From Chitinophaga pinensis (GTDB taxonomy: Bacteria > Bacteroidota > Bacteroidia > NS11-12g > UBA955), in the NCBI GenBank assembly GCA_945877575.1, contig CAMDUE010000002.1, positions 124,001 through 188,000 of the forward strand: a stretch of DNA of 64,000 nt. The letters are read 5' to 3'. A model generated the notes under the pieces. The model saw nothing but the letters and a program-made list of their open reading frames with translations, was not told the origin of the DNA and did no database searches. The translations under genes and the position numbers were made by a program. Of this stretch, positions 19,275 to 56,427 are shown piece by piece (position 1 is the stretch's first letter; every line of letters begins with the position of its first letter).

Positions 19275-19337
19275 TTATTGGTATTTGGTAGTTGGTAATT
19301 GGTACTAGGTAGTTGGTACTTGGTAGTGGGTTAGTGG
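19275..19337. repeat. Heptamer array A (9 words)
   Basis: Nine consecutive 7-bp words of the TAnTTGG/GGTAnTT type (TATTTGG, TAGTTGG, TAATTGG, TACTAGG and so on). It fills the whole gap between the DUF1573 and yajC genes and its last word contains the DUF1573 stop codon (TTA on the plus strand at 19331). Confidence 0.9.
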
Positions 19338-20795: not shown

Positions 20796-20805
20796 ATAAA
20801 AAAAT

Positions 20806-20973
20806 GGTAGCTGGTAGCTGGTACCTAGTACCTGGTACCTAGAACTTGGTAGTGGGTAGTGGGATTCAGGAGTCGGGTTTCGGGTTTCGGGTTTCGGGTG
20901 TTGGACTTTGGAACACGGAACACGGACCTCGGACCACGGACTTTGGACCACGGACTATGGACTATGGACTAGA
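20806..20973. repeat. Heptamer array B (24 words, 168 bp)
   Basis: Unbroken 7-bp register over 24 words. It begins with GGTAGCT and GGTACCT words, moves through GGTAGTG and GGTTTCG, and ends in GACCACG and GACTATG words. Adjacent words are often identical or differ by one or two bases. It lies between nusB and the divergent small gene at 21043 and encodes nothing. Confidence 0.93.
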
Positions 20974-24772: not shown

Positions 24773-24940
24773 AGTCCATGGTCGGTGGTCAATGGTCTGT
24801 AGTCGGTGGCTAGATACCTGAAACTAGAGACCGGGGACGAGCGACCAAAGTCCCGGTAATTTAGGCCTGAGACCCGGTACCTGATACCCGCGACCTGCTA
24901 CCCCCTACCCTCTACCTGCTAACGACTACCGGCTAGCTAC
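24773..24940. repeat. Heptamer array C (24 words, 168 bp)
   Basis: Strict 7-bp register for 24 words. The left part uses GGTCGGT and GGTCTGT words; the middle uses GACCGGG and GACCAAA; the right part uses TACCTGA, TACCCGC and TACCTGC, which are GGTA words on the other strand. The right end runs into the fcl gene and supplies its stop codon and last four codons (VASR on the minus strand). Confidence 0.93.
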
Positions 24941-30242: not shown

Positions 30243-31256
30243 ATGAGACTGCGCATCGAGTCCCATAATTTGGAGTTCATTAAACCGGCAAAAACATCCA
30301 GAGGCGAATACACCACTAAAACAGCACACATACTCATTTGCGAAGATGAAGTCAGTGGTGTTTTGGCAATGGCCGAAGCCTCACCCTTGGTTGATTTGAG
30401 TGTTGATGGTAAAGAGGATTTAGTATTTGTTGTTCAACTCCTATCTGAAAAAGAATTTACCCTTTCTGATTTACAAGAACTGCTCGAAGAATGGGAAAAA
30501 TATCCCACGCTTCGGTTTGCCTTGTATTGCATTTTATTGAAACTCCAAGGATTTCCTGAGACCCCATTTTCACGCGGTCAATCTGGAATTGCCATCAATG
30601 GATTGGTTTGGATGAATGATATCCAATCAATGGAAGAAGAAGCATATCAAAAAGTAAATCAAGGGTTTAACATCATCAAATTCAAAGTTGGTGCGCTCGA
30701 TTTTGATGCAGAATGTAGACTCTTAGAGCGCTTCCGAAAAAAGCACAATCCTTTTCAGGTAGAAATTCGTTTAGATGCTAACGGTGCCTTTCTTCCCGAA
30801 GACTCATTATCTCAATTGAAAGATCTTTCGCGTTTTGACATACACAGCATAGAACAACCTATAAAGCCCAAACAATATGACTGGTTATCAAAGATTTGCA
30901 AAGAATCAAAGATACCCATCGCGCTTGATGAAGAGCTCATTGGATACAGAGTAACTGAATCAAAAAAATTACTTTCTGAAATTTCTCCTCAGTATTTGAT
31001 TCTTAAGCCCACGTTACTGGGAGGATTTGATCACTGCGATAGCTGGATTAAATCAGCATCGACATACAACATTGGTTGGTGGAGCACCAGCGCTCTCGAA
31101 GGAAACCTTGGCCTTTACGACATTGCGCGTTGGGCTTCAAATTATCCCATAAACATGGCGCAGGGCCTAGGAACGGGAAGTTTATTCATCAAAAATTTAG
31201 ATGTGAATCAAAAAACAAAGGTGATTGGTTCAGAGTTGTGGGTTGACAGTATTTAG
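30243..31256 (+). CDS. menC: o-Succinylbenzoate synthase
   Basis: An enolase-superfamily dehydratase of menaquinone synthesis. From ATG 30243 it has 337 residues. The catalytic lysine pair is in NIIKFKVGA (about 141). Metal ligands are in IRLDANGAF (Asp about 178), IEQPIK (Glu about 205) and ALDEEL (Asp about 229). LKPTLLGGF carries the second catalytic Lys. It follows menA by 2 bp. Heptamer array D begins within 5 bp of its stop codon. Confidence 0.93.
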   Translation: MRLRIESHNLEFIKPAKTSRGEYTTKTAHILICEDEVSGVLAMAEASPLVDLSVDGKEDLVFVVQLLSEKEFTLSDLQELLEEWEKYPTLRFALYCILLKLQGFPETPFSRGQSGIAINGLVWMNDIQSMEEEAYQKVNQGFNIIKFKVGALDFDAECRLLERFRKKHNPFQVEIRLDANGAFLPEDSLSQLKDLSRFDIHSIEQPIKPKQYDWLSKICKESKIPIALDEELIGYRVTESKKLLSEISPQYLILKPTLLGGFDHCDSWIKSASTYNIGWWSTSALEGNLGLYDIARWASNYPINMAQGLGTGSLFIKNLDVNQKTKVIGSELWVDSI

Positions 31257-31393
31257 AATTTAGTCGGTGGTCTGAAGTCGGTGGTCGGTAGACTTTAGTC
31301 GGTAGACTGTGGACGAGAGACTAGTGACTAGTGGCCTAGTTGGAACCCGGTACAATAGACCATTTACCTAGTACCAAAGTCTAGGTACCAAAA
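31254..31393. repeat. Heptamer array D (about 20 words)
   Basis: A continuous 7-bp register from the menC stop to the terminator. It starts with AGTCGGT and GGTCTGA, continues with AGACTTT, GACTAGT and TGACTAG words and ends in ACCATTT, ACCTAGT and ACCAAAG, which are complementary-type words. It encodes nothing. Confidence 0.9.
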
Positions 31394-39768: not shown

Positions 39769-40779
39769 ATGATTCAGGACATAGAAAAATACGAAAAAGA
39801 AATAGATGGATATGTGATTGAAAGCTCGGCACAATTAGAAGAGTTTCGTTTGACGTATTTGTCTCGCAAGGGAATCATAGCACAATTATTTGAAGATTTT
39901 AAAAATTTGCAGGGAGAAGATAAAAGATCTGTTGGAAAGCCTTTGAATGTTTTGAAGAAAAAGGCGGAAGATCTTTTTGAACAGAAGAAAGCGGAATTTG
40001 AAAATCAAGACGGAGCAAGTGATGAGGGTATAGATTTTAGTTTACCTGTTTATCAAGATATGCCAGGAAGTGTTCATCCGTTGAAAGCGGTTGAAAATAG
40101 ATTGATTGATATTTTTTATTCTTTGGGATTTGATTTAGCAGATGGTCCGGAGATTGAAGATGACTGGCACAACTTTGGGGCTTTGAATTTTGCTGATGAC
40201 CATCCTGCAAGGGATATGCAAGATACTTTTTTTATTGGTGAACATGTTTTGAGAACGCATACTAGTTCAGTGCAAATCAGAGAGATGCAAAAGCATGAAC
40301 CTCCTTTCCGATTGATTATGCCTGGTAGGGTTTACCGAAATGAGGCGGTGAGTTCAAGAAGCAACTGTTTCTTCCATCAGATTGAGGGATTGTATGTTGA
40401 TCAAGGAGTTACGTTTGCGGATTTAAAGCAAACTTTGTATTATTTTGTTCAGCAATTTTTTGGAAAGGGAAAAGAGGTTCGATTTAGATCTAGTTATTTC
40501 CCTTTTACTGAACCCAGCGCAGAAATGGATGTTTGGGTTGGATTAGATACAGAAGAAAATAAACGACTTACAAAAGGAACAGGTTGGTTGGAAGTTTTGG
40601 GTTGCGGAATGGTACATCCCAATGTTTTGGATGCCTGCGGTATAGATTCTCAAAAATTTTCCGGCTTCGCCTTTGGGATTGGTATGGATAGAATTACCAT
40701 GTTGAATTACGGCATCAATGATATTAGAGATTTATTCTTGAACGATGTTCGTATGTTAAAACAGTTTCAGGGACAATGA
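39769..40779 (+). CDS. pheS: Phenylalanyl-tRNA synthetase alpha subunit
   Basis: A 336-residue class II synthetase subunit that charges tRNA-Phe together with PheT. An N-terminal coiled coil (about 1-85) precedes the core. Motif 1 region is PLKAVENRLIDIFYSLGFD, motif 2 is RLIMPGRVYRNEAVSSRSNCFFHQIEGLYVD (split: GRVYRNE at about 187), and motif 3 is FAFGIGMDRITMLNYGI (about 304). The substrate pocket VFGCGM-type stretch reads EVLGCGMVHPNVL. pheT is not adjacent. It overlaps lpxH by 4 bp. Confidence 0.96.
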   Translation: MIQDIEKYEKEIDGYVIESSAQLEEFRLTYLSRKGIIAQLFEDFKNLQGEDKRSVGKPLNVLKKKAEDLFEQKKAEFENQDGASDEGIDFSLPVYQDMPGSVHPLKAVENRLIDIFYSLGFDLADGPEIEDDWHNFGALNFADDHPARDMQDTFFIGEHVLRTHTSSVQIREMQKHEPPFRLIMPGRVYRNEAVSSRSNCFFHQIEGLYVDQGVTFADLKQTLYYFVQQFFGKGKEVRFRSSYFPFTEPSAEMDVWVGLDTEENKRLTKGTGWLEVLGCGMVHPNVLDACGIDSQKFSGFAFGIGMDRITMLNYGINDIRDLFLNDVRMLKQFQGQ

Positions 40780-41570
40780 TCTATTTTGCTAGCGACTTCC
40801 ATTTGGGTATGGGCGTAAACGCCGATGAACGGGAAAGAAAAATTTGTCGCTGGTTGGACTTTGTATCGGAAGATGCCAGTGATATTTTTTTACTGGGAGA
40901 TTTGTTTGACTTTTGGTTTGAGTATAAAAAAGCAGTTCCCAAAGGATTTGTCCGTTTTTTGGGGAAGTTGGCGGAGTTAACGGATAAAGGAATTCGTATT
41001 CATGTTTGCGTTGGTAATCACGATTTATGGATGCGCGATTATTTGGAAAAGGAATGCGGGGTCAGAATTTTTAGGGAACCTGAAGTGCATGAGTTTTCGG
41101 GAAGAACATTTGTATTGCATCACGGAGATGGATTGGGTCCTGGAGACGAAAAGTATAAATTATTGAAACGTATTTTTACCAATAAGTTGGCTCAAGGCTT
41201 TTTTGGGATGCTTCATCCGGATTTGGGAATTCGTTTGGCATCGGGATGGAGTAAAAAAAGTAGATTGAATCAGCCAAAATGGGAGGAAACTTTCCAGGGA
41301 AATGATAAGGAGTATTTGGTGCAGTTTTGTGAGGATTGGTCGTTGGTAGATGGTAGGGGGACTTTGGTACATGGTAGGGGGTCTTTGGTAGGGGGTAGTG
41401 GGAATGTGGTAGATTATTTTGTGTTTGGGCATAGGCATTTGTTGTTGGATGTGACCTTGAGTAATGGGGCTTCGAGATATATCAATTTGGGACAATGGTT
41501 TACGGGATCGGCGTATGCGAAATTTGACGGTGATGAACTAGTGGTTCATGAGTTTGAAAAAATAAAATAA
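40776..41570 (+). CDS. lpxH: UDP-2,3-diacylglucosamine hydrolase-like phosphoesterase with heptad-repeat insert
   Basis: A 264-residue calcineurin-like metallophosphoesterase of lipid A synthesis. Motifs are FASDFHLGM (about 4), LLGDLFDFWF (about 39), VGNHDLWM (about 83), LHHGDGLGPGD (about 113) and VFGHRHL (about 215). Residues about 188-213 are an insertion of heptapeptides LVDGRGT, LVHGRGS and LVGGSGN, encoded by heptamer array E, placed just before the last His motif. Metal ligands are intact, so the enzyme is probably active. Such a repeat at this position is not a normal part of the family as I know it. Confidence 0.9.
   Translation: MIYFASDFHLGMGVNADERERKICRWLDFVSEDASDIFLLGDLFDFWFEYKKAVPKGFVRFLGKLAELTDKGIRIHVCVGNHDLWMRDYLEKECGVRIFREPEVHEFSGRTFVLHHGDGLGPGDEKYKLLKRIFTNKLAQGFFGMLHPDLGIRLASGWSKKSRLNQPKWEETFQGNDKEYLVQFCEDWSLVDGRGTLVHGRGSLVGGSGNVVDYFVFGHRHLLLDVTLSNGASRYINLGQWFTGSAYAKFDGDELVVHEFEKIK
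41338..41414. repeat. Heptamer array E inside lpxH (11 words)
   Basis: Eleven exact 7-bp words (GGTCGTT, GGTAGAT, GGTAGGG, GGACTTT, GGTACAT and so on) entirely within the reading frame. The pair GGTAGGG-GGACTTT recurs in array F. The translated frame avoids the TAG triplets in the words. Confidence 0.93.
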
Positions 41571-44678: not shown

Positions 44679-45029
44679 ATGGGAATGAGACAAGAAAAAT
44701 TTGCTCGACAAATCCAGAAGGATTTGGGAGAGTTGCTATCGGCGCACCGACACGAATGGTTGACGGGTGCGTTTGTTACTATATCGAAGGTGGTTGTAAG
44801 TCCAGACTTGGGTTATTTAAAGGTGTATTTGAGTTTGTACAACAACCAAAACAGAGCAGCGATTTTGGAGCATTTGAATGGCGAAATCAACAAGGAAATC
44901 CGCCACAAATTGGCTCAAAAGATCAGAAACAGCGTAAGAACGGTACCTGAAATACGGTTTTACGAAGACGAAACACTTGACTACGTTGAAAAAATGGAAG
45001 AGTTGTTTCGGAAGATCAAGGATCAATGA
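44679..45029 (+). CDS. rbfA: 30S ribosome-binding factor A
   Basis: A 116-residue KH-like protein that helps 16S rRNA 5'-end maturation. It has RQEKFARQIQKDLGELL, TISKVVVSPDLGYLKVYLSLY (about 35-55) and the end VRTVPEIRFYEDETLDYVEKMEEL, the RbfA signature. It starts 1 bp after rpoN and overlaps the next gene by 4 bp, so rpoN-rbfA-lolC are cotranscribed. Confidence 0.94.
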   Translation: MGMRQEKFARQIQKDLGELLSAHRHEWLTGAFVTISKVVVSPDLGYLKVYLSLYNNQNRAAILEHLNGEINKEIRHKLAQKIRNSVRTVPEIRFYEDETLDYVEKMEELFRKIKDQ

Positions 45030-46243
45030 AAGCGGTTTGGCTGATAGCGAAATCCTACTTTTTTTCGAGGAAAAATCCATCGGCCATCAACATCATTACG
45101 GGAATTTCTTTGGGGGGATACGCGCTCGGCGCGATGTCGTTGTTGGTGTTATTGAGCGCTTTGAACGGCTTTGAGGACAGCATTTTTGGTGGGATTAAGG
45201 CGACGTCGGCGGATTTGGTAATTGGTAGGGGGACTTTGGTAGAGGGTAGGGGGGCGTTGATAGAGGGTAGTGGGTCGTTGGTAGAGGGTAGGGGGGCGCG
45301 GTTGTCGGGTTTCGGGAGTCGGGTTTCGGGAGACGGGAGGTATGTGTGTCAGAGTTTGATAGATAAGGCCATTGTGAAGTATGGAGATAAGCAGACGGTG
45401 GCGAGGATTTGGGGGGTTGATAGCAATTTTTTTAAAGTTTATAATGCTGATAGTTTGGTGGTTGCGGGGAGTGCTCAGTTGGGTGCGCGCGATGCTTGGA
45501 TGTCGGAGAGTTTGGTGTATCAATTGAATATTGAGCAGGTGGATAGGCCCGTTGAGGTTATGACGCCATCGAGGACGGCGGGATCATTGGCTCAGACTAC
45601 CTTAAATTTGGAGGAATTGTCGGTGAGGGCGATGTTTAGAATTAGGGAAGAGAATCATGAGAACACCTTGATTGTGCCGATAGAGGTGGCAAGGGGCTTG
45701 TTTGAACGCGAAGATTTTGAAGGGCGTTGGGATATAAAAGTGAAAGACCCATTAAAGATTGAAGAGGTAAAGGGTGATTTGATTGAAAAGCTGGGTCCAG
45801 GTTTTAAGGTAATGGATAGAGCCGAACAACATGGAACTTTGTACCGCATGTTTAATACGGAAAAGTGGTTTTCGTTTGCGTTGTTGGCGTTTGTTTTGTT
45901 GTTGATCAGCTTTAATTTGTTTGGATCTATACGAATGATGCAAATTGATAAAGCCCAAGATTTGAAGATGTTAGCGGCCTTGGGAATGGGTGATTCTGGA
46001 TTGAGGTGGATCTTTTTGCTTCAAGCAATATGGGTTGCCTTGGTGGGTACAGTGATAGGAATTTTATTGGCTTTAGGCCTGATTTGGGTTCAGTTGAGAT
46101 TTGGTATGGTGACCACACAAAGCAGCTTTGAGATGGTTTATCCGGTAAGTTTGAGAATGGGAGATATTGGATTGGTTGCCGGTTTGAATTTGGCAATTGG
46201 ATTGATGGTTGGGGTTATTGCTTCTGCACAAAGCTCAAAATAG
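45026..46243 (+). CDS. LolC/LolE-type lipoprotein-release ABC permease with heptad-repeat insert
   Basis: A 405-residue MacB/FtsX-family permease. One N-terminal membrane helix (SAINIITGISLGGYALGAMS ... NGFED) and three C-terminal ones (about 280-300, 320-345 and 370-395) flank a periplasmic domain. Residues about 64-106 are a repeat-encoded insert (LVEGRGA, LIEGSGS, LVEGRGA, LSGFGS) at the start of the periplasmic domain, just after SADLVIG. LolCDE-type proteins move lipoproteins out of the inner membrane, usually as an essential function. The ATPase partner is not adjacent. Its 3' end overlaps pth by 29 bp in antisense. Confidence 0.87.
   Translation: MKAVWLIAKSYFFSRKNPSAINIITGISLGGYALGAMSLLVLLSALNGFEDSIFGGIKATSADLVIGRGTLVEGRGALIEGSGSLVEGRGARLSGFGSRVSGDGRYVCQSLIDKAIVKYGDKQTVARIWGVDSNFFKVYNADSLVVAGSAQLGARDAWMSESLVYQLNIEQVDRPVEVMTPSRTAGSLAQTTLNLEELSVRAMFRIREENHENTLIVPIEVARGLFEREDFEGRWDIKVKDPLKIEEVKGDLIEKLGPGFKVMDRAEQHGTLYRMFNTEKWFSFALLAFVLLLISFNLFGSIRMMQIDKAQDLKMLAALGMGDSGLRWIFLLQAIWVALVGTVIGILLALGLIWVQLRFGMVTTQSSFEMVYPVSLRMGDIGLVAGLNLAIGLMVGVIASAQSSK
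45217..45342. repeat. Heptamer array F inside the LolC-type gene (18 words)
   Basis: Eighteen uninterrupted 7-bp words (126 bp, 42 codons). GGTAGGG-GGACTTT at the left is shared with array E; GGTTTCG and GGAGACG at the right are shared with arrays B and I. The translation is seven-residue repeats. Confidence 0.94.
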
Positions 46244-48610: not shown

Positions 48611-49024
48611 ATGTTAAATCGTCCGATTCGGGTTTTGATTGCCAAAGTAGGGCTAGACGGTCACGATCGCGGTGCTAAAGTCATTGCGGCTGCCTTGCGT
48701 GATGCGGGAATGGAAGTTATCTATACGGGTTTACGTCAAACGCCAGAGATGGTGGTTCAAACGGCGTTGCAAGAAGATGTTGACGCCATTGGTATCAGCA
48801 TTTTGAGTGGTGCCCACAATACGGTTTTCCCAAGAATCATCAGTTTGATGCAGGAAAAGGGTTTGGAAGACGTCTTGTTGATAGGCGGCGGAATCATCCC
48901 TGACGGGGATGCTTTGGCATTGAACGAACAGGGTGTAGCGAAGTTGTTTCCTCCGGGGACGGAGATGGGGGAAATAGTGGGTTTCATAACTGAAAGAGTC
49001 GAGAGTCGAGAGTCGAGAGACTAG
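48611..49024 (+). CDS. Cobalamin-binding domain protein (methylmalonyl-CoA mutase C-terminal type)
   Basis: A 137-residue stand-alone B12-binding domain. It has [22 protein letters not shown] with the DxHxxG ligand motif (about 16), SILSGAHN (about 65) and [26 protein letters not shown], the signature of the mutase small module. As a separate protein it may be part of a two-subunit mutase or isobutyryl-CoA mutase-like enzyme; no large subunit is in the window. The last codons ([10 protein letters not shown]) and the stop are heptamer repeat sequence (array G). Confidence 0.88.
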
Positions 49025-49064
49025 AGACTAGGGTCTGTGGTCTGTAGTCGGTGGTCTGTGGGCG
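48995..49064. repeat. Heptamer array G (10 words)
   Basis: Three exact AGAGTCG words, two AGAGACT words and then AGGGTCT, GTGGTCT and GTAGTCG types, all 7 bp. The left part is the C-terminal coding end and stop of the B12-binding protein gene; the right part lies upstream of comB. Confidence 0.92.
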
Positions 49065-49084: not shown

Positions 49085-49942
49085 ATGAAAAATATTACTA
49101 CTGTTTTGTCGCCGGCGTTGTTTGAGGCAACGGTTGGGGGCGTGGAGAATAAGAATGTGGTGGTGATTGATATTTTGAGGGCTACAACCACCATGTGTGT
49201 GGCCATGGAAAACGGTGCCAACAGCATTTGGCCGGTTGATTCGGTTCAGAAGGCGGCTCAAGCCGGAAGTTCATTTTTGACGGCGGGAGAGCGGAATGGT
49301 GAAAAGGTGGAAGGCTTCGATTTGGGAAATTCTCCGCAAGAATTTAGTGAAGAAGTTGTTAAAGGTCGCGACATTGTTATGACCACCACCAATGGAACTA
49401 AAGCTATTTCATTGTCGGAGGGTGCGAAGAATATTTACATTGCGTCTTACAGGAATATATCGGCGGTGGTTCAGGAGTTGCAGAAGCAACCGGAAGACAT
49501 TGTTTTGTTTTGTTCGGGATGGAAGGATCAAGTGAATTTAGAAGATACGTTGTTTGCGGGGGAAGTTATTTATTTGGTAGGGGGTAGTGGGTATCAGGTA
49601 GCGGGTAGCGGGGGGCGGGAGTCTGAGGTCGATAGTCCGAAGTCGGTAGTCGGTGGTCGGGAATCTGAAGACTCAGGACCAATTACCAATTACCAATTAC
49701 CATGTACCAAGTACCAAGTACCAATTACCAGCTACCAACTAAACGATAGTTCCTGGTTGGCGCTGAAGCTTTATGAGGAAGTTAGCGGCGAGGAGGGAAC
49801 GTTTTTGGAGAATGCATCGCATGTGCAGCGGTTTAAGAGTCTGCATATTGAGTCTGACCTGGAGGTGTGTTTGAAACGAGATACGAGTGAGTTGGTGTTG
49901 AGGGTGGAACAAGGAATTATTCGTAGATTTGTAGTAACGTAA
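49085..49942 (+). CDS. comB: 2-phosphosulfolactate phosphatase-like protein with heptad-repeat insert
   Basis: A ComB-family Mg-dependent phosphatase (285 residues from ATG 49085; the upstream GTG at 49037 lies inside repeat array G). Motifs are VVVIDILRATTTMC (about 23), EGFDLGNSPQEF (about 73), MTTTNGTKA (about 98), LFCSGWKDQVNLEDTLFAGEVI (split; about 142) and the C-terminal FLENASHVQRF. Residues about 164-220 are a 56-residue insertion coded by array H. The insertion follows LFAGEVIYLV, between conserved helices. ComB makes sulfolactate for coenzyme M-like compounds; its role in bacteria of this kind is not settled. Confidence 0.85.
   Translation: MKNITTVLSPALFEATVGGVENKNVVVIDILRATTTMCVAMENGANSIWPVDSVQKAAQAGSSFLTAGERNGEKVEGFDLGNSPQEFSEEVVKGRDIVMTTTNGTKAISLSEGAKNIYIASYRNISAVVQELQKQPEDIVLFCSGWKDQVNLEDTLFAGEVIYLVGGSGYQVAGSGGRESEVDSPKSVVGGRESEDSGPITNYQLPCTKYQVPITSYQLNDSSWLALKLYEEVSGEEGTFLENASHVQRFKSLHIESDLEVCLKRDTSELVLRVEQGIIRRFVVT
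49576..49743. repeat. Heptamer array H inside comB (24 words, 168 bp)
   Basis: Twenty-four 7-bp words in unbroken register, 56 codons in frame. The left third uses GGTAGGG and GGTAGCG words, the middle uses GTAGTCG and GTGGTCG, and the right third uses AATTACC, AAGTACC and AGCTACC, the reverse complements of GGTAATT, GGTACTT and GGTAGCT. The two ends can therefore pair in RNA. Confidence 0.95.
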
Positions 49943-51780: not shown

Positions 51781-52245
51781 ATGTCCAAAATACTCATTCT
51801 GAATGGGCCGAATTTGAATCTTCAGGGAAAGAGAGAGCCTGAGATTTATGGTCGCGAAACCATTGAAGGGTATTTGCAAAATGAGGCTGAAACGTTGATT
51901 TTTCAGCAGTCAAACATTGAAGGCGAATTGATCAACTTTCTTCACGCGGCAGAAGAAAATACCGAAATATCTGGAGTGGTTTTCAATGCCGGCGGATATT
52001 CACATACTAGCATCGCCCTGGCCGACGCTGTGAAAGCCATTTCGAAGCCCGTCATTCTGGTTCATATCAGCAACATTTACGCTCGCGAAATTGAACGCCG
52101 AACCGATCTGTTATCGGCCTACGCCGCCGGACAAATTGTGGGTTTGGGTTTGATGGGGTATAAGTTAGCGATTAGAGCTATTTTTTCGGGTTTCGGGGAT
52201 CGGGTTTCGGGAGACGGGGATCAGGAGCCACAGACCACGGACTAA
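51781..52245 (+). CDS. aroQ: 3-dehydroquinate dehydratase, type II
   Basis: A 154-residue shikimate-pathway enzyme. It has ILNGPNLNLQGKREPEIYG (Asn and catalytic Arg/Tyr region, about 6-24), VVFNAGGYSHTSIALADAV (catalytic His about 81) and PVILVHISNIYARE. The usual length is about 140-145; here the true C-terminus (GYKLAIRAI) is followed by FSGFGDRVSGDGDQEPQTTD, coded by heptamer array I, so the tail is a repeat-derived extension. It forms an operon with purQ and probably with the next hydratase. Confidence 0.95.
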   Translation: MSKILILNGPNLNLQGKREPEIYGRETIEGYLQNEAETLIFQQSNIEGELINFLHAAEENTEISGVVFNAGGYSHTSIALADAVKAISKPVILVHISNIYAREIERRTDLLSAYAAGQIVGLGLMGYKLAIRAIFSGFGDRVSGDGDQEPQTTD

Positions 52246-52270
52246 TGGCCACAGACTAAAGACTATAGAC
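52187..52270. repeat. Heptamer array I (12 words) spanning the aroQ end and the next gene's leader
   Basis: CGGGTTT, CGGGGAT and CGGGAGA words followed by CACAGAC, CACGGAC, TAAAGAC and TATAGAC words. The aroQ stop codon (52243-52245) lies in it and the next ATG (52272) directly follows it. Confidence 0.93.
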
Positions 52271-52271
52271 C

Positions 52272-53069
52272 ATGACAAACATAACAACTGAAATAACCGA
52301 AGGAATTCTGACGATTACCATCAACAGGGAGTCGAAGATGAATGCGTTGAACATTGAGACCTTGCAAGAGATTAAGCAGGCCGTTATTGAGGGCAATGAG
52401 AATCCGGAAGTGGTGGGAATGATATTGACCGGCGCGGGAACCAAGGCGTTTGCTGCGGGAGCAGATATTTCGGAATTTGCGAATTTTAATGTGGAGAAGG
52501 GCACTCAGATGAGCGCTGACGGACACGATGTAATGAATACCATCGAAGATGGACACATGCACCAGTGGGATGGGACTAAGACCAAGTTTGTGGTGGCGGC
52601 GGTGAATGGATATGCGCTGGGTGGAGGTTGTGAGTTGGCGATGGCCTGTCACATGAGAATTGCGAGCAGCAATGCGAAGTTTGGACAACCTGAGGTGAAT
52701 TTAGGGGTTCCTCCGGGATACGGCGGAACGCAGCGTTTGATACAGTTGATTGGCAAGGGAAGAGCCTTGGAGATGTTGTTGACGGGCGACGCGATTGATG
52801 CGCAGACGGCCTTGAATTACGGCTTGGTGACCAAAGTGGTTGATCAAGCGGAATTGTTGACGGTTTGCAGAGAAGTGGTTAAGAAGGTGGCGTCAAAAAG
52901 TCCATCGGCAGTGCATAAAATATTGAAGTGCGTGAGCGATTTTTATCGTCCAAACGTGAACGGAATGCAGAGAGAAATCTATGAATTCGGGTCGGCGTTC
53001 AGCACCGAAGACTTCAGCGAGGGCACAGATGCGTTCTTGAACAAGCGCAAAGCGGAGTTTAAGAGGTAA
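52272..53069 (+). CDS. Enoyl-CoA hydratase/isomerase family protein
   Basis: A 265-residue crotonase, hydrating trans-2-enoyl-CoA in beta-oxidation or branched-chain catabolism. It has ITINRESKMNALNIETL, GAGTKAFAAGADISEF (oxyanion hole, about 57-72), VVAAVNGYALGGGCELAMACHMRIAS (about 101) and the catalytic GxPEVNLGVPPGYGGTQRL (Glu about 140, Gly-rich loop). The whole leader between aroQ and this ATG is heptamer sequence, with no Shine-Dalgarno and no -7 box, so it is likely cotranscribed with aroQ. Confidence 0.92.
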   Translation: MTNITTEITEGILTITINRESKMNALNIETLQEIKQAVIEGNENPEVVGMILTGAGTKAFAAGADISEFANFNVEKGTQMSADGHDVMNTIEDGHMHQWDGTKTKFVVAAVNGYALGGGCELAMACHMRIASSNAKFGQPEVNLGVPPGYGGTQRLIQLIGKGRALEMLLTGDAIDAQTALNYGLVTKVVDQAELLTVCREVVKKVASKSPSAVHKILKCVSDFYRPNVNGMQREIYEFGSAFSTEDFSEGTDAFLNKRKAEFKR

Positions 53070-53937: not shown

Positions 53938-56427
53938 ATGGCGAACAGAGACGAATTTGACGAGTTTGAAGAAGGCGGTGCCTCCCAAACTAACACCATG
54001 GAAGTGGTCATGCGCGACTACCTTCCGTATTGGCCGGTAATTACCTTGGCCGCCATTTTGGGATTCTTCGCGGGTTCCATGTATCTCAAGACCCAGGTGC
54101 CCGTGTATCAGGTGGATGCAAAGATTTTGCTTAAAGATGAGGTGAGCCAGTCTACCGATGCGATGATGAAGCAGGTGATTACCGGGCAGTCTCAGAGTCA
54201 GGTAGATGGTGAGTTGGAGATCATTCAGAGCTACGCGGTGATGCGCGATGCGGCCATTCGAGCGAATGCTCAGGTGGAGTTTGTTTGGGATGGAAGAATC
54301 CGCAAGCAATACGAAGACGCGGAAAACATGGCCATTGAGGTGTTGGTTGATACGTTCAAGGTTTCCGGGGGAAGTTTTACCGTGGATTATAAATCCGATT
54401 CCAAAACCCTCACCGTGGGTGGCGAGGACGTTCCTTGGGGCGTATGGACGGAAGTGGAAGGAAACCGTATTTATGTCCAACGGAAAGAAGGAATTGAAGA
54501 AAAAGAATTGCAGGAATTGTCGGCCTCATCGGCGCATATTTTGGCGCTGAATATTTATACTTTAGGGGATGCGGCCAATAGAATCAAGGGATCGTTTGTG
54601 GCGGAGCCCGATAAAAAGGAGTACTTGTTGAACCTCAGTTTGACCAATACCAATACCACTACGGGTAAACGTTGGTTGACGGGTATCATTGAAGCTTATC
54701 AAGTGCAAACGCAGGCGGAGAAGCGCAAAAAGAATCAGTTGATGATGGAATTCATTGACGATCGGTTAAATTTTGTGGGACAAGACCTGGACAGCATTGA
54801 GGGTTCTTTGGTGAACTTCAAGAAGGTCAATAATGTGGAGTTTTTGAGCATGGAAGCTCAGCGGGCGTTGGCGAAGGTGAGCGAGGGCGATAAACAGACT
54901 TCGCAGTTGGATCTTCAACTGTATATGCTTGACCATTTGGAGCAGTACGTGAAGGGCAGAATGGGCAAACCGGGCATGCTTCCGGTAGATGTGGGCATTC
55001 AGAACAGCATGCTGAATGAACTGATTTTGAAATTGTATGAGGCGGAGCAGGCGTTGGTGACTCAAACCACTACCGTGGGTCCGAACAGCGACTTATTGAA
55101 GCCTTTGAAGGCAAAAATTGCGACCTATAAAAGCGGAATATTGGAGAGCATTGCGAACGCTAGAACGCAGATGAAGGTGATGAAGAACCGCGCCGATGAT
55201 GACTTCCAACGTTTCAGTCAGCAGTATAGAGGCATGATGGGATTGGTACCTGATAAAGAGCGTGAGTTGTTCAATATTACCCGTCAGCAGAAAATCAAAG
55301 ACGCACAGTTCACCTTGTTGTTGCAGAAACGCGAGGAAATGGCCATCCAAAATGCGGGTATTTTGAGCGATATAAAAGTAGTGCAAGAGCCCAGCGGAGG
55401 CACACAAATATCGCCGGTACCCACTCAAACTTTGGGTATTACCACGGGTGCTTTGGTGGCGATAGTATTGTTGGTGTTGTTTTTAAAGAGCAGTTTGAAC
55501 AATAAAATTTTGTCTCGCTCAGAAATTGAGGCGCGCACCAAGATCAACGTGGTGGGCGAGATCATTCAAACGGAGACCGATTCACCGCTGATCATGAAAG
55601 ACGGCAATCGTACGCTGATTGCGGAGCAGTTTAGAGGCCTTAGAACCAGTTTGAGTTATTTGACGCCTTCGGGAAAATCGAAGTTGTTGGTGACGTCTTC
55701 GTTCCCGGGGGAAGGAAAATCGTTCATTGCCTCGAACATTGCCTTAGGTTACGCCTTAGCGGGTAAGAAGACGGTGATCATTGAGTCGGATTTGCGCAAG
55801 CCCAACATTGCCAAGCACTTCAGCATATCGAGAAGAACGGGTTTGAGTGTGTACTTGTCTGGAAATACCAAAAAGGAAGACATTCTATTTGATGTAGAGG
55901 GATATCCCAATTTGTATGTAATACCGGCAGGACCCATACCTCCCAACCCGGTAGAATTGATCTTGAACGGAAGATACGAGGCCTTGATTCAAGAGTTGGG
56001 CGAAGACTTTGACCACGTGGTGATTGACTGTCCGCCGTTGGGATTGGTAACCGACGCGCAAGAAATTGGACAGTGGGTAGATTACGCGGTGTTGGTGGTT
56101 AGACATAGATATACCCCGAGAGAGGCGGTGAGCAACATTTTGGATCGCACCAAGCGCGAGAATCGTTTCAAGCAATCGGCGATTGTGATGAACGGCTTGA
56201 AGGGCGGAATCAGCGGCTACGGTTACGGATATAACTACGGTTACGGTCGCTACGGATACGGATACGGCTACGGCTATGGCTATGGCTATGGCTATGGCTA
56301 TGGCTACGGAAAGAGCTACGGTTATGGGTATTATGGCAGTGAGAAAAAGCGCAAGAATCGTTTGGGTAGCTTGGTTTGGAACATCTTTGTGGCACCGTTT
56401 GGAGCGTTTTTGGGTATTCGCAAATAA
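53938..56427 (+). CDS. Wzc-like chain-length determinant tyrosine autokinase with Gly-Tyr tail
   Basis: An 829-residue polysaccharide copolymerase plus BY-kinase. An N-terminal membrane helix (about 28-46), a large coiled-coil periplasmic part, and a second helix (about 502-518) precede the kinase: Walker A SSFPGEGKSFIASNIA (about 587), Walker A' VIIESDLRKPN (about 615) and Walker B HVVIDCPPLG (about 698). The C-terminus holds a tyrosine cluster, here 19 tyrosines mainly as Gly-Tyr dipeptides (about 760-800), written by a near-perfect 6-bp tandem repeat. Autophosphorylation there controls polymer export. The wza-type gene lies directly upstream. Confidence 0.93.
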   Translation: MANRDEFDEFEEGGASQTNTMEVVMRDYLPYWPVITLAAILGFFAGSMYLKTQVPVYQVDAKILLKDEVSQSTDAMMKQVITGQSQSQVDGELEIIQSYAVMRDAAIRANAQVEFVWDGRIRKQYEDAENMAIEVLVDTFKVSGGSFTVDYKSDSKTLTVGGEDVPWGVWTEVEGNRIYVQRKEGIEEKELQELSASSAHILALNIYTLGDAANRIKGSFVAEPDKKEYLLNLSLTNTNTTTGKRWLTGIIEAYQVQTQAEKRKKNQLMMEFIDDRLNFVGQDLDSIEGSLVNFKKVNNVEFLSMEAQRALAKVSEGDKQTSQLDLQLYMLDHLEQYVKGRMGKPGMLPVDVGIQNSMLNELILKLYEAEQALVTQTTTVGPNSDLLKPLKAKIATYKSGILESIANARTQMKVMKNRADDDFQRFSQQYRGMMGLVPDKERELFNITRQQKIKDAQFTLLLQKREEMAIQNAGILSDIKVVQEPSGGTQISPVPTQTLGITTGALVAIVLLVLFLKSSLNNKILSRSEIEARTKINVVGEIIQTETDSPLIMKDGNRTLIAEQFRGLRTSLSYLTPSGKSKLLVTSSFPGEGKSFIASNIALGYALAGKKTVIIESDLRKPNIAKHFSISRRTGLSVYLSGNTKKEDILFDVEGYPNLYVIPAGPIPPNPVELILNGRYEALIQELGEDFDHVVIDCPPLGLVTDAQEIGQWVDYAVLVVRHRYTPREAVSNILDRTKRENRFKQSAIVMNGLKGGISGYGYGYNYGYGRYGYGYGYGYGYGYGYGYGYGKSYGYGYYGSEKKRKNRLGSLVWNIFVAPFGAFLGIRK
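56210..56337 (+). repeat. GGNTAY hexanucleotide tandem repeat in the wzc tail
   Basis: GGTTAC, GGATAC, GGCTAC and GGCTAT units repeat with few interruptions. They code Gly-Tyr dipeptides and could expand or shrink by slippage without a frameshift, since each unit is two codons. Confidence 0.85.

Follow-up and report, generated by a model that had tools for sequence, protein, structure and literature searches.

A heptamer repeat of a dispersed family translated within a loop of an lpxH-type gene

The DNA analysed here is a stretch of 64,000 nucleotides, which we call the window, and coordinates given without a further label refer to it. On its forward strand lies an lpxH-type gene (40776-41570) of 264 uninterrupted codons, containing neither a stop nor a frameshift, whose start codon overlaps the stop codon of pheS (39769-40779) in the sequence ATGA. 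The gene is part of a run of core genes, namely pheS, lpxH, a lipoprotein gene, prfA, rpoN, rbfA, a LolC/E-like permease gene, pth and an ABC transporter gene, and this run further holds a methylmalonyl-CoA mutase B12-domain gene and comB. These genes were named by reading their sequences, and the permease, mutase and comB assignments were additionally confirmed. The neighbourhood is largely syntenic with the congeners G006 and G010; the 270-kb contig that carries it is partly syntenic with congeners and contains the heptamer words that are normal for the genome of the window's own assembly (G000, 99.9% complete). The lpxH-type gene is present in a single copy in G000, where the other match is a metallophosphoesterase with 26% identity. 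As LpxC, LpxK and LpxB are all found in this genome, the lipid A pathway has not apparently been abandoned.

The encoded protein has a Metallophos domain according to Pfam, and the solved-structure sequences nearest to it are those of LpxH. Its NCBIfam matches are LpxH-like and fall below the curated cut-offs (NF003743, 84 bits against a cut-off of 134; TIGR01854, 68.8 against 190), and because these equivalog cut-offs are not reached, we refer to the gene as lpxH-type. Judged by its sequence, the protein would be a divergent Bacteroidota member. The first-pass annotation of this DNA had regarded LpxH as otherwise complete, and we arrive at the same view, since the open reading frame is intact and the protein keeps every column that is invariant among the homologues, including the metal-site residues. 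The metallophosphoesterase motifs D7xH9, GD42, GNHD80-83, HGD116-118 and GHRH218-221 are complete and invariant in 51 aligned sequences. An AlphaFold2 model built from 51 homologues has a mean pLDDT of 86 and a pTM of 0.87, and its top 23 structural matches, with Z from 20.4 to 25.1, are LpxH entries without exception. The best of them is 8qjz, E. coli LpxH (Z 25.1; 230 residues superposed with an rmsd of 2.5), and the next family is Mre11 (Z 14.8). Fold and metal-site residues match LpxH, the UDP-2,3-diacylglucosamine diphosphatase, which converts UDP-diacylglucosamine into lipid X by hydrolysis. The window protein differs from it by an extra loop of about 18 residues and has probably retained the enzymatic activity.

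The additional sequence coincides with a 77-bp array on the forward strand (41338-41414), which is composed of exactly eleven heptamers, the number noted before, all starting with GG. In order from position 41338, the words are GGTCGTT, GGTAGAT, GGTAGGG, GGACTTT, GGTACAT, GGTAGGG, GGTCTTT, GGTAGGG, GGTAGTG, GGAATGT and GGTAGAT, and the array is read as ...SLVDGRGTLVHGRGSLVGGSGNVVD, in agreement with the heptapeptides LVDGRGT, LVHGRGS and LVGGSGN listed in the first-pass annotation. Tandem Repeats Finder reports an array at 41343-41414 with a best period of 21 and a score of 95. The repeats are direct only and not palindromic, their G runs are mostly GG and not GGG, and folding did not reveal any RNA structure for the array (z 0.1 and 1.1). 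Within the protein, the array lies between H115-H-G-D118 and G218-H-R-H221, and thus, as previously described, between the fourth and the last metallophosphoesterase motif. The latter, the metal-binding motif GHRH (residues 218-221; 41427-41438, forward strand), is invariant across homologues and follows directly after the insert.

Alignment to homologues showed that a related loop is absent from them. The set comprised 109 rows, or about 100 distinct sequences once the same contig reached twice is removed, and the insert was found in none of these, including 10 congeners with 50-57% identity. Most homologues carry 4-10 residues of ordinary sequence at this site. Whereas the congeners read C-LEILKSQAV-D, the window protein reads C-EDWSLVDGRGTLVHGRGSLVGGSGNVV-D, beginning with EDW and ending with NVV before the aspartate, which corresponds to a net gain of about 18 residues (54 bp) over relatives and defines an extra loop of codons 191-212 (41346-41411, forward strand). 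The lpxH search gave no match in G011, a genome that is 74% complete, nor in G007 or G013. A few homologues have small, unrelated insertions near the same site, indicating that the region tolerates change. Among the species examined, the insert is unique to this one. In the model, residues 191-212 have a pLDDT of about 50, with flanks at 88 and 93. They are preceded by a confidently modelled helix (180-190, pLDDT about 88) and followed by the strand 214-217, which has the GHRH motif at its far end. The segment, about 22 residues long and rich in Gly, Ser and Arg, is predicted to form a disordered loop, and the helix/strand topology of the model would put it on the side of the protein opposite the metal site. 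The first-pass annotation had left it open whether the insertion is tolerated in a surface loop or useful. Tolerance is supported by the low-confidence loop and the intact LpxH fold, and usefulness gained no supporting evidence; the array looks tolerated, not useful, and the loop most likely has little or no effect on the enzyme.

A point absent from the earlier annotation is that the lpxH array is one among many in-gene arrays of this genome. We sampled 464 kb, made up of the window and of stretches picked without regard to arrays, with home-made array and ORF callers. Period-7 arrays occur 22 times in this sample, nine of them in the window, while the same caller returned 0, 5, 0, 1, 0, 0, 3 and 0 arrays for periods 5, 6, 8, 9, 10, 11, 12 and 13, respectively. 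This predominance of period 7 (22 versus 0-5) argues that the lpxH array is not a chance occurrence. The pattern GGTAnnnGGTAnnnGGTA is found 556 times in the genome and 0-2 times in relatives, except for G011 (28) and G014 (73, with one fixed word). The arrays are 37-352 bp long and have no fixed ends or length, and the sampled arrays contain 753 heptamers with 310 distinct words and not one fixed consensus. Neighbouring heptamers share 5.2 of 7 positions, compared to 2.9 for heptamers four or more apart and 2.5 for random ones, which points to growth by local copying. The longest strings common to different arrays exceed those of a heptamer shuffle and stay below those of a heptamer-Markov model, so that there is no sign of whole-array copying. 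Copying of blocks between loci was considered and rejected, as no excess remains beyond shared words and local homogeneity as represented in the heptamer-Markov model.

Most arrays are located just past stop codons or between convergent genes. In our first sample, which was chosen partly because it holds arrays, they typically start 0-15 bp past a stop codon, and the share of convergent gene pairs is raised at arrays (12 of 31, versus 55 of 304 pairs). Strong hairpin folding (z < -3) is seen for 17 of 41 non-coding arrays. Within the window, intergenic examples include an array of the TTGGTAG type belonging to the same family as the lpxH array (19278-19331, forward strand), a composite array of GGTA, then CGGG, then GGAC words (20802-20971, forward strand) and an array between convergent genes on the reverse strand (24774-24935). 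Further forward-strand arrays overlap the 3' end of a gene (31234-31328), of an ORF (52186-52272) and of the methylmalonyl-CoA mutase B12-domain gene (48995-49061), to whose product the array adds ...RVESRESRD. On the G-rich strand of composite arrays, the block order tends to be GGTA, then CGGG, then GGAC/AGAC words, as at 20802-20971, 45224-45339 and 52186-52272 of the window, L166 5804-5933 and L165 4497-4590. A hexamer array of 16.5 copies of CGGCTA (56214-56309) is also present in the window and stands outside the heptamer family.

In the sampled part of the genome, at least nine genes carry arrays in frame, that is, at least eight besides lpxH. The LolC/E-like (FtsX/MacB) permease gene (45026-46243, forward strand) contains one at 45216-45340 on the same strand (LVIGRGTLVEGRGALIEGSGSLVEGRGA...), which follows the stop-avoidance rule described below for lpxH and encodes LVEGRG peptides similar to those of LpxH. 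The comB gene for 2-phosphosulfolactate phosphatase (49085-49942, forward strand) has a composite array of GGTA, then GTC, then inverted TACC words (49571-49741, forward strand), and both the permease and the comB array are absent from congeners. Outside the window, in-frame arrays are found in lpxB and in the genes for an ATP-dependent DNA ligase, an M1 peptidase and a DUF6929 protein, as well as for an endonuclease/exonuclease/phosphatase (EEP) protein, where the array directly follows the signal sequence; they were also found in the genes for an M16-like peptidase and a TauE-like permease, both named by sequence appearance only. The in-gene arrays sit at linkers, in loops or just past signal peptides. 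One candidate, L178:16197-16360, was set aside since it is probably located before the true start codon.

As 7 is not a multiple of 3, each heptamer position meets every codon phase once per 21 bp. In the lpxH array, phased as TTGGTAG, bases 5-7 are TAG in 6 of 11 heptamers, yet in none of the 4 frame-critical positions (P = 0.015 for random placement). The permease array has a stop triplet at bases 5-7 in 8 of 12 heptamers and again in 0 of 4 frame-critical ones (P = 0.002, random placement). The other two frames contain 2 and 3 stops in the lpxH array, 4 and 4 in the permease and 3 and 5 in comB. These stop counts are biased, because in-gene arrays are recognised by their open frame, and the sister-frame and random-placement tests reduce this bias and do not remove it. 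The 21-bp imprint, by comparison, is not defined by the open frame, and the frame of lpxH is anchored by the homologous C-terminus. We scored each array by how far its lag-21 identity exceeds that at lags 7 and 14. This excess reaches +0.20 in the lpxH array; among the 49 non-coding arrays of at least 50 bp its maximum is +0.05, a value surpassed by 8 of the 12 coding arrays (Mann-Whitney p = 0.001). Two arrays were left out as too short, the 37-bp one in the DNA-ligase gene and a non-coding one of 45 bp, the latter having an excess of +0.22. No 21-bp excess is seen in the remaining four coding arrays, those in lpxB, comB and the EEP phosphatase gene and one in the M1 peptidase gene, and these look as if they had been captured ready-made. 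The natural reading of the imprint is that only 21-bp steps survive within genes, and purifying selection on the frame is the best reading of how the array is kept open.

Based on these results, we propose, with a probability of roughly 0.7, that a dispersed repeat prone to slippage expanded within a tolerant surface loop of LpxH while its frame was kept by purifying selection. The 77 bp would then be one of the translated copies of a lineage-specific family of degenerate heptamer arrays dispersed over the genome. In the ancestry of the species, this array would either have entered the loop that joins the last helix to the strand before the GHRH motif or have originated there. Subsequently, the array would have grown in place through local duplication, presumably by replication slippage or unequal exchange. 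Only steps of three heptamers, equal to seven codons or 21 bp, would keep the frame, so that the lpxH array came to comprise a 21-bp unit repeated about 3.4 times. Heptamers in which bases 5-7 form a codon, one in every three, would be kept free of TAG. Exchange between loci may maintain the species-wide vocabulary. The net gain of 54 bp is divisible by neither 7 nor 21, and pure stepwise growth from today's loop length therefore fits inexactly.

Alternatively, a small mobile element, comparable to REP/MITE sequences or the Rickettsia palindromic elements, could have been pasted as a whole into lpxH by a transposase. The same vocabulary does recur at unlinked loci and in many genes, the composite arrays of comB and lpxB appear ready-made, and REPs are likewise found after stop codons and between convergent genes (PMC3733652). 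We nevertheless consider this unlikely, given that a PF01797 search of the 99.9% complete genome gave no match to a Y1/RAYT-type transposase, that ends and lengths of the arrays vary, that strings shared between arrays are no longer than the heptamer-Markov model yields and that the lpxH and permease arrays show in-place growth in 21-bp units. It is also conceivable that the loop itself is useful and that its LVxGRGx repeats confer a new property on LpxH, such as binding to the membrane or to a partner. The frame kept open by purifying selection and the LVEGRG peptides in the permease, another envelope protein, would fit with this idea. However, selection on the frame protects the enzyme downstream and does not require a function of the loop, the insert is predicted to be disordered, arrays are also present in unrelated cytosolic, secreted and membrane proteins and nothing alike is seen in any homologue, which makes a useful loop very improbable.

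A role of the array as DNA or RNA, for instance as a G-quadruplex, terminator or recombination site, with translation being incidental, seems slightly less probable still. According to the abstract of PMC4692102, related G-rich heptamer repeats form quadruplexes in vitro, and many of the non-coding arrays described above show strong hairpin folding and lie next to stop codons, but the lpxH array lacks both RNA structure and a predominance of GGG runs, and coding arrays bear a reading-frame imprint that is absent from the non-coding ones. Least probable of all, in our estimation, is that lpxH is decaying or that the array is an assembly artefact. Binning may be imperfect, as a few contigs of the assembly bear heptamer words of another species; in contrast, the contig with lpxH has the genome's normal words and partial synteny with congeners, and the gene, which is the sole copy, is free of stops and frameshifts, retains all invariant residues and its translational overlap with pheS, and is accompanied by LpxC and LpxK.

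As to the similarity of words across loci, our leading guess is that gene conversion between arrays keeps them alike. A reverse transcriptase (including that of a DGR) or a Y1 transposase as the writer of the arrays was rejected for G000, in which neither PF00078 nor PF01797 had a match; PF01797 matches are present in 15 of 38 relatives. The vocabularies differ between species: RGACCAC pairs occur 37 times in G000 versus once in the congener G011, while RGACCAA pairs occur 19 times in G000, mostly on contigs C17 and C25, versus 265 times in G011. In both G000 and G011, LpxB has an in-frame array at the same inter-domain linker (L166 5297-6457; L229), with a G-rich block followed by an RGACC block, each in the words of its own species, and the linker is short in eight other relatives compared. 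Either a single old array took on new words as its genome did, or two separate hits fell on a linker that tolerates them. One might speculate that a dedicated process is responsible for writing or homogenising the words of each species across dispersed loci, and that unlinked arrays, LpxB and LpxH included, therefore change vocabulary together. The pair counts and the LpxB linkers speak for such a process, which we regard as rather doubtful.

Several observations in G000 and its relatives concern these vocabularies. Contigs C17 and C25 of G000 (L244, L245, L246) are devoid of GGTA words and bear the G011 vocabulary (RGACCAA and AGCTG types); they are likely mis-binned or transferred DNA. In G011, a 1-kb stretch around a small secreted-protein gene (L180, G011:C3, 10084-11140) is flanked by arrays in G000 vocabulary, as if it had been acquired from a G000-like relative. 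G014, which belongs to another genus of the family, has arrays of the single fixed word GGTAAGT at many loci (L199-L201). In Saprospiraceae and Chitinophagales relatives, heptamer arrays occur as inverted pairs (GAGTTTT...AACTCAAAA; AAGTGAA...TTCACTT) from which long hairpins would be expected (L103 3369-3491, L059 4079-4179, L077 3991-4117). Heptamer arrays seem to be widespread in the phylum.

Related repeats have been described in other bacteria. Like the arrays described here, the Rickettsia palindromic elements are found throughout the genome and as in-frame insertions in numerous conserved genes that are unrelated to one another (PMC10969869). However, they are palindromes of about 150 bp with conserved peptides, whereas our arrays repeat every 7 bp, vary in their length and ends and have a vocabulary that drifts; the one in lpxH is a non-palindromic sequence of 77 bp. 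TAACTGA heptamer repeats are known from Beggiatoaceae, Cyanobacteria and some Bacteroidetes (PMC4679880) and also form dispersed direct arrays, which are mostly intergenic, with a few translated as heptapeptides. They consist of one fixed word, are found in Beggiatoaceae mostly just before start codons and, when in genes, mostly near the ends, in contrast to the hundreds of word variants observed here, mostly past stop codons, and the interior loops of conserved enzymes in which they occur. The GGGNATC repeats of Xanthomonas and Nostoc are, according to the abstract, G-rich, genome-wide repeats with a period of 7, often near stop codons (PMC4692102), and some words of our arrays are similar (GGGTTTC, GGGGATC). 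The same abstract reports one consensus type, a preference for four units and under-representation in coding regions, and does not describe translated arrays in conserved genes. Lastly, GTAG-tagged REPs with RAYT transposases are placed after coding regions and between convergent genes, with some in genes (PMC3733652), much like the arrays studied here, but they are palindromes of 20-40 bp tied to a RAYT transposase, which was not found in G000, and a 7-bp period is not a described feature of theirs. Beyond MacGregor 2015, we found no description in the literature of such arrays in this group.

Taken together, the lpxH array combines features of heptamer repeats with those of Rickettsia-type in-frame repeats, to which it adds a drifting vocabulary and a reading-frame record. 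Bacterial heptamer repeats have been studied mostly as intergenic sequences, and here a repeat family is translated within core envelope enzymes. The species vocabularies pose the question of what keeps unlinked words alike without a transposase or reverse transcriptase of the tested families, and they may also help to flag DNA that was mis-binned or transferred. In addition, the coding copies hold a legible record of growth, in the form of 21-bp steps and stop avoidance, which the non-coding copies lack. The arrays thereby offer a natural setting in which to test how new protein loops arise from simple repeats in genes of an essential type.
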